From assembly GCA_903870995.1 (NCBI GenBank), contig CAIQFD010000015.1, positions 16,721 through 80,720 on the forward strand: 64,000 nucleotides of DNA, in the 5' to 3' direction. This document shows, piece after piece, positions 25,541 to 56,464 of this stretch (positions within the stretch are counted from its first letter, which is position 1; each line of letters begins with the position of its first letter). A program made the position numbers and the translations under genes. Below the pieces are notes generated by a model. The model was not told where the DNA came from. It worked only from the letters and a program-made list of their open reading frames with translations, and searched no databases. Source of the stretch: an uncultured Methylophilaceae bacterium (GTDB lineage Bacteria; Pseudomonadota; Gammaproteobacteria; Burkholderiales; Methylophilaceae).

Positions 25541-27013
25541 TTGCGCATTTTATTCGTCACATCTGAAGCATTCCCACTGATTAAAACTGGCGGCCTCGCC
25601 GATGTAAGCGGTTCACTCCCCGCAGCACTCCAAACCCTTGATGCTGACGTACGCATCTTAATTCCTGGATATCCTGCTGTATTAGAGAAATTGGTGAACC
25701 CTAAATTTCTGACGACAATTTCCAACCTACCCAATATTGGCTCTATCAACCTGATTCAAGGCGAAATGCCAGAGACAAAAGTCCCCGTCATAGCAATTGA
25801 ATCAACGGGCTTATATCAGCGGGATGGCGGACCTTATGTTGATGCAACAGGTAAGGAATGGGAAGACAACCCCACGCGCTTCGGCACCCTTTCCTTGGTT
25901 GCAGCCATATTAAGTAATGAACAAAGTCCTTTAAAAGACTGGATTCCCGAGATCACCCACTGCAATGATTGGCAATCGGGACTCACGCCCGCCTTCATGC
26001 ACTTTATGAGTGCGGCTCGCACCCAAATGAAACAGGCTAAATCGGTATTGAGCATCCACAATCTTGCTTTTCAAGGCTGCTATCACGCAGATTGGGTAGC
26101 GCGCTTAGGCTTACCTGCCGAAAGTTATCAAATGAATGGGCTTGAGTATTACGGCCAGCTTTCATTCTTAAAAGCAGGCGTATTTTATGCAGATGGGCTT
26201 TCAACAGTCAGCCCAACTTACGCCAAAGAAATCCAAACTGAAGCTTACGGATTCGGTATGCAAGGCCTACTAAAAGCACGTGGCAAAGAGATACATGGCA
26301 TATTAAACGGCCTAGACACCAACGAATGGAATCCTGCTACCGACCCTTACCTTGCAGCGCATTACGACGTCAAAAAGATCACAGGCAAACAAGCGGTCAA
26401 GGCTGATTTACAAGCAAAGCTAAAATTAAACATCGATGCGAAAGCGCCATTACTAGGCGTTGTGAGTAGACTTACCCACCAAAAAGGGTTGGACATGCTA
26501 CTCGCATGCGCTGAAACGATCATCAATGGAAACGACTGCCAATTAGCGGTGCTCGGTAGCGGAGAGACTGCGTTTGAAGAGGGATTTTGCGATTTGGCGA
26601 TGCGCTTTCCAGGCAAAGTCAGCGTGACAATTGGCTATAACGAAGCACTATCGCACCAGATTATGGCGGGCTGTGACATTTTCATCATGCCGTCCCGTTT
26701 CGAACCTTGCGGGCTGAACCAGATGTACGGTTTGCGCTATGGCACACCACCTGTTGTGACGAATACTGGCGGGCTTGCCGACTCAGTTCAAGATAGCAAC
26801 GATGAGAGCATTAAAGACAAATCAGCGACTGGCTTTGTCATGCCAAAAGCCACTCCGGAGGAACTGCTAAGCGCCACAGAGCGAGCTTTAAGGTATTACC
26901 GAGATGAAAAAACCTGGGAAGAAATACAGAAAAATGGCATGCGCCAACAACTAGATTGGACAAAAAGCGCCCAGGCCTATATGACAATGTACGAAGGTTT
27001 TTTGAAGAAATAA
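25541..27013 (+). CDS. glgA: Glycogen (starch) synthase
   Basis: TTG start; MRILFVTSEAFPLIKTGGLADVSGSLP; IMPSRFEPCGLNQMYGLRYGT. Confidence 0.97.
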   Translation: MRILFVTSEAFPLIKTGGLADVSGSLPAALQTLDADVRILIPGYPAVLEKLVNPKFLTTISNLPNIGSINLIQGEMPETKVPVIAIESTGLYQRDGGPYVDATGKEWEDNPTRFGTLSLVAAILSNEQSPLKDWIPEITHCNDWQSGLTPAFMHFMSAARTQMKQAKSVLSIHNLAFQGCYHADWVARLGLPAESYQMNGLEYYGQLSFLKAGVFYADGLSTVSPTYAKEIQTEAYGFGMQGLLKARGKEIHGILNGLDTNEWNPATDPYLAAHYDVKKITGKQAVKADLQAKLKLNIDAKAPLLGVVSRLTHQKGLDMLLACAETIINGNDCQLAVLGSGETAFEEGFCDLAMRFPGKVSVTIGYNEALSHQIMAGCDIFIMPSRFEPCGLNQMYGLRYGTPPVVTNTGGLADSVQDSNDESIKDKSATGFVMPKATPEELLSATERALRYYRDEKTWEEIQKNGMRQQLDWTKSAQAYMTMYEGFLKK

Positions 27014-27031: not shown

Positions 27032-27047
27032 TGGCACGTAAACTGCT
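27032..27047 (+). promoter_or_regulatory. Putative sigma-54 (-24/-12) promoter
   Basis: TGGCACGTAAACTGCT against consensus TGGCACG-N4-TTGC-T/A. GG at 27033-27034 and GC at 27045-27046 have the canonical spacing; one T is replaced by C. Confidence 0.65.
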
Positions 27048-27056
27048 TATGTAATA

Positions 27057-27119
27057 GCGAGCTTACTCCTAAGCTGCTTTTCTCCTCCTTTTGGGTGCGC
27101 TAGTCGCACCCACTTTTTT
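27057..27119 (+). ncRNA. Candidate sigma-54-dependent sRNA with anti-Shine-Dalgarno motifs
   Basis: Predicted +1 near 27057. Hairpin GC(G)AGCUU-ACUCCU-AAGCUGC (27057-27077), unpaired UUUUCUCCUCCUUU tract, 8-bp terminator stem plus T6. No ORF. Confidence 0.6.
27092..27119 (+). terminator. Intrinsic terminator
   Basis: TGGGTGCG-CTAGT-CGCACCCA followed by C then TTTTTT (plus strand only). Confidence 0.85.
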
Positions 27120-27129
27120 GCCTATTGCT

Positions 27130-27690
27130 TTAGTCGAGCTTGATAAAGTGCTCGCGGTAATATTTGAGTTCATCGATAGACTCGTAAATATCTGCCAAAG
27201 CCTCGTGCTTGCTTGCCTTTTTAAAACCCGAGTAAATCGTCGGTTTCCAGCGTCGCGCTAACTCTTTAAACGTGCTGACATCCAAATTACGATAATGGAA
27301 ATATTTTTCGAGCTCTGGCATGTAACGCGCCATAAATCGTCTGTCTTGGCAAATAGAGTTACCACACATTGGCGACTTTCCCGCAGGCACATGTTCCTTC
27401 AAAAACGCCAGCATTTGCGCTGTTGCTTGTTCTTCGTTAGTAGTTGATGCCTTCACCTTTTCAATCAAGCCAGAGCGGCCATGCGTGCCTTTATTCCATG
27501 CATCCATGCCATCTAACACTTCGTCTGATTGATGCACCACAATCACAGGAGATTCGGCAATCACATTTAAATCCGCATCGGTCACAACAACAGCCAGCTC
27601 TATAATACGATCGGAATCAGGTAATAAGCCTGTCATCTCCATATCAAGCCAGATTAAATTGTCGTTCGGATTAGCCATCATGATTTCCAT
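27130..27690 (-). CDS. orn: Oligoribonuclease
   Basis: [33 protein letters not shown] DEDDh exonuclease. Confidence 0.97.
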
Positions 27691-53321: not shown

Positions 53322-55058
53322 CTAAGCAAGCTTAAAGCCTGCAACAGACTCACTCAGCTCAACAGCCAAGCCACTCAATTGTCCAACAGACTCTGCAGTC
53401 AGCTTTGTGCCCTCAGTTGTTTGAGAGGTAATATTTTGAATCAACTGCATATTACGAGTGACGGTCGCGGCAGAGTGTGTTTGCGTAGCCGTCGCTTGAG
53501 AAATAGACGCAATCAAACTCGCCAAGCTATTGGTTACCGTTTCAATTTCATTCAACGCCTGTCCTGCAGCATCAGAAAGTCTTGCCCCATCAACCACACC
53601 CTCAGTACTCTTTTCCATTGCAACCACCGCGCTATTGGTATCGGCTTGAATGGTTTTTACAATGACACTAATTTGCTTGGTCGCTTCTGAGGATCGCTCA
53701 GCCAGCCGCTGAACTTCCTCCGCAACCACAGTAAAACCTCGCCCAGCTTCACCGGCTGAAGCTGCCTGAATAGCAGCATTCAATGCCAAAATGTTTGTTT
53801 GCTCAGTAATGTCTGAAATCAGTTCAACAATTTCACTAATCTCTTGGGAGCTCTCACCCAATCGCTTGATACGCTTTGACGTCTCTTGAATTTGCGTGCG
53901 AATTTCATTCATACCAGAAATGGTATTTTGCACAGCCTGTGAGCCTTGTGTAGCCGCTTGCAATGATCGCTTTGCCACTTCCGAAGCTTCGCTAGCGCTG
54001 ACTGATACCTGCGCCATTGAATTTGTCATGTGGTCAACAGCCTGCCCTGTTTCTGCGATCTGCTTGGACTGCTCTTCGGCAGCCAATAAAAGAGATTCAG
54101 AGGTCTGTTGTGCTTGCGCTGTCGCTTGATTAACTTGTGCTGTTGCACGGTTAATTTCTACAACTAAATCTCGTAAACTTTCAATCGTATAGTTTATGGA
54201 ATCTGCAATCGCTCCAGTAATACTTTCCGTCACTTCCGCCTTTACTGTCAAATCGCCGTCTGCCAAGTCTCCCATTTCATCAAGCAATTTAAGGACCGCC
54301 TGTTGATTTTGTTCACTCTCAACTTCTAAGCGCTCAACACCTGAATGGACGTCATTCACCTGGCGCCTACCAAACTCAGCCATAAACACAATCACCACTA
54401 GTGCAAGCAACCCAAGTGCGACCAAAATACTCGAAACCGTTTTTCTTTGCGAAGCCATTAACGCTTGAGTGTTTTTCTCTGATGTGGCTAAGAAACGATT
54501 AACCGAGGATTGATTTAACTCATAACTTGCCATCAGCTCAGGTAAAGCTGTTGCCGCAGATTCAGGACCTACTTTTAGCGCTGGGATATACGTCTTATTT
54601 GCTAGGCTAAAAAAGTTTTCACCAGTCTTAGCAAGGGCATCCAATTCGCCCTGCATATCAGAGTTTTTCAATCGAGCTTGCCAAACACTTATCTGCTTTT
54701 TAAATGCTTGATGATGGACCTCAAATTCTTTAAGCTTTTTAGTCAAAGACGCTTCATCGCCCTTTAATGAAGCAACATACGCTTGATTGAGCAAAGAAAA
54801 GGCCTCTACAGGATAAATGGTTGGCGGCACAACCTCTGCGTGCAAGTCCTGGCGCTCAACTATCGCTTGATAAACCGGCCCATCCACACGAATGTAACTT
54901 ACTGCAGCAAACGTCAGCACAATAAATACTGAAAACGTAAAAATTTGCACGAGCATTTGCTTATGCGCGCCTAAAAAACGATCAACACTAAAACCCTGAC
55001 TATCCATCTTGGATAGCCGACTCAAAAAAGATGTGATTTTATTAAAGTTCATCGCCAT
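53322..55058 (-). CDS. pilJ: PilJ-type methyl-accepting chemotaxis protein
   Basis: Two TM, HAMP-like region, MCP hairpin tip [51 protein letters not shown]. Confidence 0.94.
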
Positions 55059-55076
55059 ATTCTTTCCTTTACCCCT

Positions 55077-55658
55077 TTACCCATGCCCTGCTTGCATAAA
55101 GGCATTCAAATTAACTAAAGCTTGGCAATCTAAAATGCGCCAAGCATTACCGTACTCATCCTCAAACTCATCGCCGGAAAAACATAAAGACTGATGATCT
55201 TCAGCAGACTTTTCGCCTTCTAAGGAACTTGTGTCTATTTTTTTAAAATGCTCTAAACTCCGCAACCCAATCAACCGCTCAATCAACACAGCCGTGTGCG
55301 GCGCTATACTTTTACTGATTAGCAGAATACGAGCGTCACTCTTTTTAGCGCTTACTGCATTTACTCCAGAGGTTCGCTTGATATCTAGCACATCTAAAAA
55401 ACCAGCTAAATTCGTGATTGCATATAAATTGCCGCGCACATTGGCTGTGCCTAAAAACCAAGCTTGCGCATTGGGCACAGGGAAAATTGTAGGCACTGGC
55501 AAAACTTCACTAACCTGCGACATATCCACCAACACATCCAAGCCACCAACACGCATCCCCAAAAAGCTTTTATGTGAGGAAGCATTCGCCTGCAAAGCTG
55601 AGTCAAGCTTAGCGAGAATGCTTTCTTGATACTGTCGTAGATTTAAGCTGCTAGCCAT
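55077..55658 (-). CDS. pilI: PilI/CheW-type coupling protein
   Basis: VGGLDVLVDMSQVSEVLPVPTIFPVPNAQAWFLGTANVRGNLYAITNLAGFL. Confidence 0.92.
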   Translation of the reverse strand: MASSLNLRQYQESILAKLDSALQANASSHKSFLGMRVGGLDVLVDMSQVSEVLPVPTIFPVPNAQAWFLGTANVRGNLYAITNLAGFLDVLDIKRTSGVNAVSAKKSDARILLISKSIAPHTAVLIERLIGLRSLEHFKKIDTSSLEGEKSAEDHQSLCFSGDEFEDEYGNAWRILDCQALVNLNAFMQAGHG

Positions 55659-55666
55659 AAAGGTAT

Positions 55667-56032
55667 TTAACCCAGCAATTCAACTTGCTCAATAAAACTT
55701 GACTGAGCAAGCGGTTTTAACAAGCAGGCTTTAGCACCCATTTTTAAAGCCCACGCCTGATCTGTCGCTTGAGATTTCCCCGTGCAAACAAAGACTGGGA
55801 TATGTGCTGTCAAAGGATTTTTTGTTAATGTTCGCGTTGCCTGAAATCCAGTCATGCCTGGCATCACAACATCCATCAGAATCAAATCTGGCATATCACG
55901 CTCTGCCATCATAATCCCGTCTTCACCACTCTCTGCAGCAATCACTGTATAGCCCATCCCTTCTAGCAGTTCAGTCATTACTAATCGATCGGTTGCCGAA
56001 TCATCCACGATCAAAACTCGATTAATCGTCAT
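55667..56032 (-). CDS. pilH: PilH-type single-domain response regulator
   Basis: RVLIVDDSATDRLVMTELLEGMGY...DLILMDVVMPGMTGFQATR. Confidence 0.92.
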   Translation of the reverse strand: MTINRVLIVDDSATDRLVMTELLEGMGYTVIAAESGEDGIMMAERDMPDLILMDVVMPGMTGFQATRTLTKNPLTAHIPVFVCTGKSQATDQAWALKMGAKACLLKPLAQSSFIEQVELLG

Positions 56033-56041
56033 TCTTATCTC

Positions 56042-56464
56042 CTAAGCCGTAAGCTTTTCAAGCATGTATGCATTTTTTTGATGGATGAGATATGTATCAA
56101 TGGCCTGCATCAACGTATCTCTAGTAAATGGCTTTGTTAGATACTGATCTGAGCCCACCATACGACCACGCGCCCTATCAAACAGGCCATCTTTACTAGA
56201 TAGCATAATGACGGGGGTTGCCTGATAACGGGGATTACGTTTAATGAGAGAACAGGTTTGATAGCCATCAAGTCTTGGCATCATGATGTCAACGAAAATA
56301 AGGTTGGGCTGATAGTCGACAATCTTGGATAAGGCGTCAAAGCCATCTTGCGCCAAAATAACATCGCATCCAGAAGGCTTTAAAAACATCTCAGCACTTC
56401 TTCTTATCGTGTTGCTGTCATCAATCACCATGATTTTAAGTCCCGTCAAATCAATCAGATCCAC
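56042..56464 (-). CDS. pilG: PilG-type single-domain response regulator
   Basis: KIMVIDDSNTIRRSAEMFLKPSGCDV...NLIFVDIMMPRLDGYQTC. Confidence 0.92.
   Translation of the reverse strand: MDLIDLTGLKIMVIDDSNTIRRSAEMFLKPSGCDVILAQDGFDALSKIVDYQPNLIFVDIMMPRLDGYQTCSLIKRNPRYQATPVIMLSSKDGLFDRARGRMVGSDQYLTKPFTRDTLMQAIDTYLIHQKNAYMLEKLTA

Follow-up and report, generated by a model that had tools for sequence, protein, structure and literature searches.

Small RNAs (sRNAs) made from sigma-54 promoters and sRNAs that expose anti-Shine-Dalgarno (anti-SD) motifs are both known kinds. The gammaproteobacterial NrsZ, Qrr1-5 and CrcZ have sigma-54 promoters under an NtrC-type enhancer-binding protein; Qrr acts by pairing with specific mRNAs, CrcZ by titrating Hfq/Crc with its A-rich motifs, and to our knowledge none of these RNAs is built around CUCCUCC. 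Two further sRNAs come from Sinorhizobium meliloti. MmgR, or alpha-r8 (RF00519, 'suhB'), is a 77-nt trans-sRNA that is induced by NtrC on nitrogen limitation, is listed with both RpoD and RpoN promoters and has been linked to storage polymer (PMC7143759, PMC8401924). NfeR1 carries anti-SD motifs (CCUCCUCCC) that pair with translation starts and silence ntrBC, and it acts together with NtrBC in nitrogen control (PMC10746234). The sRNA gene analysed here was found in a 64-kb stretch of DNA (the window) from a member of the Methylophilaceae, and both its family and its combination of promoter and anti-SD motifs appear to be new in the Betaproteobacteria. We read it, with a probability of about 0.7, as an autonomous Methylophilaceae gene for a sigma-54-dependent sRNA of ~62 nt that would block SD sequences in trans, with NtrC as the likeliest activator in this genome.

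The gene sits between the convergent genes glgA (glycogen synthase; 25541..27013, forward strand, stop codon 27011-27013) and orn (oligoribonuclease; 27130..27690, reverse strand, its stop codon beginning at 27130). Its sigma-54 promoter occupies 27032..27048 on the forward strand, and, as a sequence-only reading of the window had proposed, the -24 element TGGCAC (27032-27037) lies 18 nt past the glgA stop, with the correct GG/GC spacing and TGC at 27044-27046 within the -12 element TGCTT (27044-27048). That reading placed +1 at ~27057; counting from C27046, the C of TGC, as -12 moves it to ~27058, and for this reason the AGC at the base of the first hairpin may lie partly outside the transcript. 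With +1 placed from the -12 element and the last base of the T run (27119) taken as the 3' end, the promoter and terminator spacing predicts an sRNA of ~62 nt at 27058..27119, forward strand. Folding gives a 5' hairpin at 27056..27078 (conserved core 27060-27075) that holds CUCC in its loop (27066-27069), and this is followed by an unpaired UUCUCCUCCUU tract at 27080..27090 with the anti-SD motif CUCCUCC at 27082-27088, the arrangement of anti-SD loop and unpaired tract that had been claimed. The intrinsic terminator found by terminator scan (27092..27119, with an 8-bp stem at 27092-27112 and T6 at 27114-27119) also agrees with the earlier description and ends 10 nt short of the orn stop. CTCCTCC occurs only once in the whole window, both strands searched. 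A peptide-coding role was dropped, as the 62 nt contain no ATG.

In its predicted fold (minimum free energy -22 kcal/mol) the RNA forms two hairpins that are separate from each other and leaves the CUCCUCC tract unpaired; this fold beat 200 of 200 shuffles (z = -3.0), and the RNA has a U tail. By ensemble folding, the median unpaired probability of CUCCUCC was 0.997, against 0.54 for the RNA average, and that of the loop CUCC was about 0.99 to 0.9997. The 68 homologues have a median RNA length of 63 nt; all of them contain CUCCUC or CUCCCC, and 60 contain CUCCUCC. Their first hairpin has the consensus AGCUU-N-CUCC-N-AAGCU with minor changes among members, and in 66 distinct sequences 97.8% of the cells in its pairing were paired, far more than in slid controls. 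The recommended check for covariation showed hairpin pairs that co-vary, with two-sided changes at three of the six, and terminator stems that change in compensation, with a T run in 68/68; for hairpin 1 the support from covariation looks modest, because it is mostly invariant. Thus the core of the sequence-only reading, i.e., an autonomous RNA of ~60 nt that exposes two anti-SD motifs and ends in an intrinsic terminator, is kept in relatives.

How far the unit extends among bacteria was followed at several depths. A DNA search of 149 relatives gave clear matches within the Methylophilaceae, in which the conserved block runs from the -24 element, or from just ahead of it, to the terminator. 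A covariance model, R1, covering 60 nt, -24 element to CUCCUCC inclusive, scores the window's own RNA at 83 bits and matches 130 of 187 family genomes, in 21 of 24 genera (E <= 0.01); the weakest of these 130 matches are doubtful, and the 68 members that were extracted pass E <= 1e-6. Among 349 genomes across the order there was no R1 match at 1e-5 outside the Methylophilaceae. Scanning about 85,000 GTDB genomes for the pattern produced 103 stretches, and the named stretches that score with R1 belong to Methylophilus, Methylotenera, Methylobacillus and Methylovorus, alongside Methylophilaceae-like MAGs; pattern matches in unrelated phyla failed R1 (best E = 0.005) and were about as numerous as expected by chance. 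The search of related genomes therefore found a promoter-hairpin-CUCCUCC-terminator unit that is conserved across the Methylophilaceae, and the family is confined to them, with convincing matches nowhere else in these scans. Those streamlined relatives that carry rpoN and ntrC are for the most part without the RNA, which counts against the main reading.

The promoter is conserved along with the RNA. Of the 68 homologues, 66 have TGGCAYN6TGC in the corresponding position, a count to be read with the covariance model in mind, as it includes the promoter and favours members that have one; in the first, BLAST-derived set, the promoter was present in 13/13. In the fetched loci the background of this pattern is ~2.5e-5 per position, and the sigma-54/anti-SD unit at this locus is well above chance. 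Across 67 homologues TGGCA is 100% and TGC 98-100% conserved, and the six intervening bases drift. One RpoN is encoded in the window's genome, and rpoN is present in 176 of 187 family genomes. The claim of a sigma-54 promoter was therefore supported by the -24/-12 elements kept in relatives and by rpoN in the genome, and the label 'sigma-54-dependent anti-SD sRNA' can be considered well supported at the sequence level.

In the mechanism that we propose, sigma-54 RNA polymerase would initiate about 12 nt downstream of the -12 element. The RNA so made, of ~62 nt, would have three modules: first a hairpin with a CUCC loop, next the unpaired tract UUCUCCUCC(C/U)U, and last an intrinsic terminator that ends in a U tail. 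The anti-SD motifs would then pair in trans with the Shine-Dalgarno regions of selected mRNAs, and ribosome entry would be blocked. A sigma-54 promoter depends on an enhancer-binding activator, so the sRNA would be made only under particular stress, and it is probably a starvation-responsive translation repressor. By analogy, the best-supported mechanism would be a block to ribosome entry on selected mRNAs, and it is favoured because conservation among the transcribed letters is highest in the exposed SD complement and because of the precedents of NfeR1 and MmgR. The earlier proposal of a post-transcriptional repressor thus stands as the most likely function; no conserved target was found, and pilH, the best candidate in the window, is not conserved. 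That candidate, the ribosome-binding site of a pilH-like response regulator, gave the best duplex in the window (-27.3 kcal/mol), and it was dropped, as 20 of 21,301 window positions reach this value, including some in the complement of the sRNA itself, and pilG was in none of eight congeners searched. The window has a pilG-pilH-pilI-pilJ-like chemosensory operon (twitching motility) at 53322-56464 on the reverse strand. GGAGGAG adjoining ATG is rare in the window's genome, where GGAGGAGA-ATG had zero matches; in several other genomes its matches came at about control frequency, and some were the reverse complement of such sRNAs. No notable complementarity to the sRNA was seen in ntrB start regions, the target of NfeR1, or in glnA.

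Other accounts of the segment have to be weighed against an autonomous anti-SD sRNA. The RNA could be the glgA 3' UTR and its terminator, possibly a 3'-UTR-derived sRNA, with the sigma-54 match incidental: in the window the promoter begins 18 nt past the glgA stop with no terminator in between, and 64 of the 68 members have glgA at most 1.5 kb from the RNA (61 have orn that close, and in 59 both genes flank it). We regard this as unlikely, as -24/-12 elements that are near-invariant would be unexpected for an incidental match, and about 14 members have an intrinsic terminator between glgA and the promoter. In addition, two genomes of the window's genus (G005 and G008) have lost glgA, and yet have the promoter and RNA intact in the order crcB-[sRNA]-orn, so the RNA is an independent gene, and one RNA of the glgA-orn type with the same hairpin (L064) was found beside gshA, away from glgA. 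That the segment lies between convergent genes and ends in a terminator would also fit a mere bidirectional terminator, a reading we hold to be very improbable, given that the terminator is the least conserved module, with 64 distinct sequences in 68 members, and the promoter, hairpin and CUCCUCC are conserved; the conservation test set out with the sequence-only reading gave the same picture, with the -24/-12 elements and anti-SD loop kept, not the terminator alone. Being short, with pyrimidine tracts exposed and a U tail, the RNA might instead titrate a protein, e.g., Hfq, and not pair with mRNA at all, but its conserved letters are CUCC and CUCCUCC, the complement of the SD sequence, rather than the GGA of CsrA/RsmA ligands or A-rich repeats of the CrcZ type, and titration seems improbable to us.

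The identity of the activator is where an alternative carries more weight. Among the NtrC-type proteins of the window's genome, whose assembly is 93% complete, GAFTGA was found only in NtrC, which is encoded beside NtrB, and the PilR-like and NtrX-like proteins are without it; NtrC was likewise the sole GAFTGA activator found in the complete G005 genome and in G012. As the only intact-GAFTGA activator found, NtrC, and with it nitrogen limitation, would by elimination be the likeliest activator in the window's genome. NtrC boxes (TGCAC-N7-GTGCA) occur at glnA in 10/10 genomes and at the ntrBC promoter of the window's genome, and none was found there upstream of the promoter of the glgA-orn sRNA, where no recognisable enhancer for another activator was seen either. 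Within 300 nt of the glgA-orn promoters, boxes with <= 2 mismatches were present in 9/68, against 5-13 at control spacings, and so were not enriched; the G005 copy does carry one, at -154. The occurrence of TGCACTTTATGAGTGCA in glgA of five congeners was set aside as an NtrC box, being most likely a coding constraint. This lack of a box in most members speaks for a different, genus-specific activator (carbon, phosphate or other) of what would still be an anti-SD repressor, as does the perfect dyad CTGTTA-N8-TAACAG that genus g11 (contigs of Methylobacillus gramineus, caricis and glycogenes; L055, L056, L073, L078, L080) has at -95/-96, a position expected of an enhancer. Several other genera have the element TGTCAC-N10-TANANT, similar to a PhoB-dependent sigma-70 promoter, 33-69 nt upstream of the -24 element (L043, L047, L050, L063, L065, L057, L058, L101, L103, L092 and L048). 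Its spacing is exactly 10 in 12 members, with about 1 at other spacings, and its resemblance to a Pho box plus a sigma-70 -10 element makes a second, phosphate-regulated promoter possible. We treat another activator as a serious possibility, though the less probable one, and from these motifs the activator wiring appears to differ between genera. For the nitrogen or carbon response suggested by the sequence-only reading, NtrC as the only intact-GAFTGA activator found speaks in favour and the lack of an NtrC box at the promoter speaks against; a nitrogen-responsive glgA-orn sRNA is plausible.

Weak second matches of R1 proved to belong to a further sigma-54 unit that has CUCCUCC(UCC) and a terminator and lies directly upstream of gshA. 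This gshA-linked sibling is found in genera g6, g11, g12, g15, g19 and g21 (loci L300-L308 and L107) and was not found at the gshA locus of the window's own genome. It shares with the glgA-orn RNA its promoter type, CUCCUCC(UCC) before the terminator and its bacterial family, and differs from it in a longer, variable 5' domain and in its NtrC boxes: eight of the nine loci with upstream sequence have one (<= 2 mismatches) at -79 to -89, a fixed position counted from the -24 element, and that of the ninth locus is at -184. A similar sigma-54 unit in G010 has a perfect NtrC box at -86. The sibling would thus be a more direct link between sigma-54 anti-SD sRNAs of the family and nitrogen control than the window's copy is, and the presence of a glgA-orn type RNA at the gshA place in L064 suggests duplication. 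Additional sigma-54 units with a CUCCUCC-like tract and a terminator were seen in L146 at 1417 and in L310, L311 and L315 at 1501, the tracts of L310 and L315 being CUCC/CUCCC only. In genome G003, of the window's genus, there is a sigma-54-like unit with CTCCTCTCCTCC and a terminator that is unlinked to gshA (L270 at 1455, reverse strand). Strong sigma-54 promoters also stand right before small, possibly secreted protein genes of Methylophilaceae in L309, L313 and L317 at 1501. The RpoN regulon seems to be undescribed in this family. Tentatively, and with less than even confidence, we suggest that the glgA-orn and gshA types and the others are a set of sibling sigma-54 anti-SD sRNAs that arose by duplication and module exchange and that answer to separate enhancer-binding proteins. 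If that were true, the CUCCUCC module that they share would let methylotrophs integrate limitation of nitrogen, phosphate or carbon in a single translational response, and the set would be the counterpart of MmgR/NfeR1 in the Betaproteobacteria, arrived at by way of sigma-54.

The glgA-orn sRNA appears to be an undescribed regulatory RNA. Open-access full text yielded no Methylophilaceae sRNA, which is weak evidence, subscription literature being outside its scope. Its gene has been kept in most of the genera that make up a major bacterial group living on methanol and methylamine, and its promoter, 5' end and seed motifs offer a precise handle on post-transcriptional control in methylotrophs. 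Together with the gshA sibling, it opens the question of how one anti-SD module connects to different starvation signals, and it also raises that of why streamlined ocean and lake relatives lost the sRNA.

Comparison with the known systems places the glgA-orn sRNA as follows. The Rfam check that had been called for (Rfam 15) gave no family above threshold for the sRNA; the window's RNA had no match to RF00519 at E up to 10, and two of 21 members tested reached it sub-threshold on the sRNA strand (L087 with 29 bits, L083 with 27 bits, cut-off 41). With NrsZ, Qrr1-5 and CrcZ it shares the promoter type, whereas sequence and structure are unrelated. MmgR has the same sequence of parts, i.e., a 5' hairpin, an exposed anti-SD motif and a terminator, but is alphaproteobacterial, has -35/-10 boxes with a dyad between them, and differs in sequence and genomic place. 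NfeR1 (alpha-r14, of the cuckoo RNA family) likewise exposes several anti-SD motifs per RNA; it has three hairpins, each with CCUCCUCCC, and a sigma-70 promoter that is LsrB-activated and NtrC-repressed, in contrast to the single CUCC hairpin, linker CUCCUCC and terminator of the glgA-orn sRNA, with its sigma-54 promoter and no Rfam match. Even with these differences, MmgR and NfeR1 are its closest known analogues.
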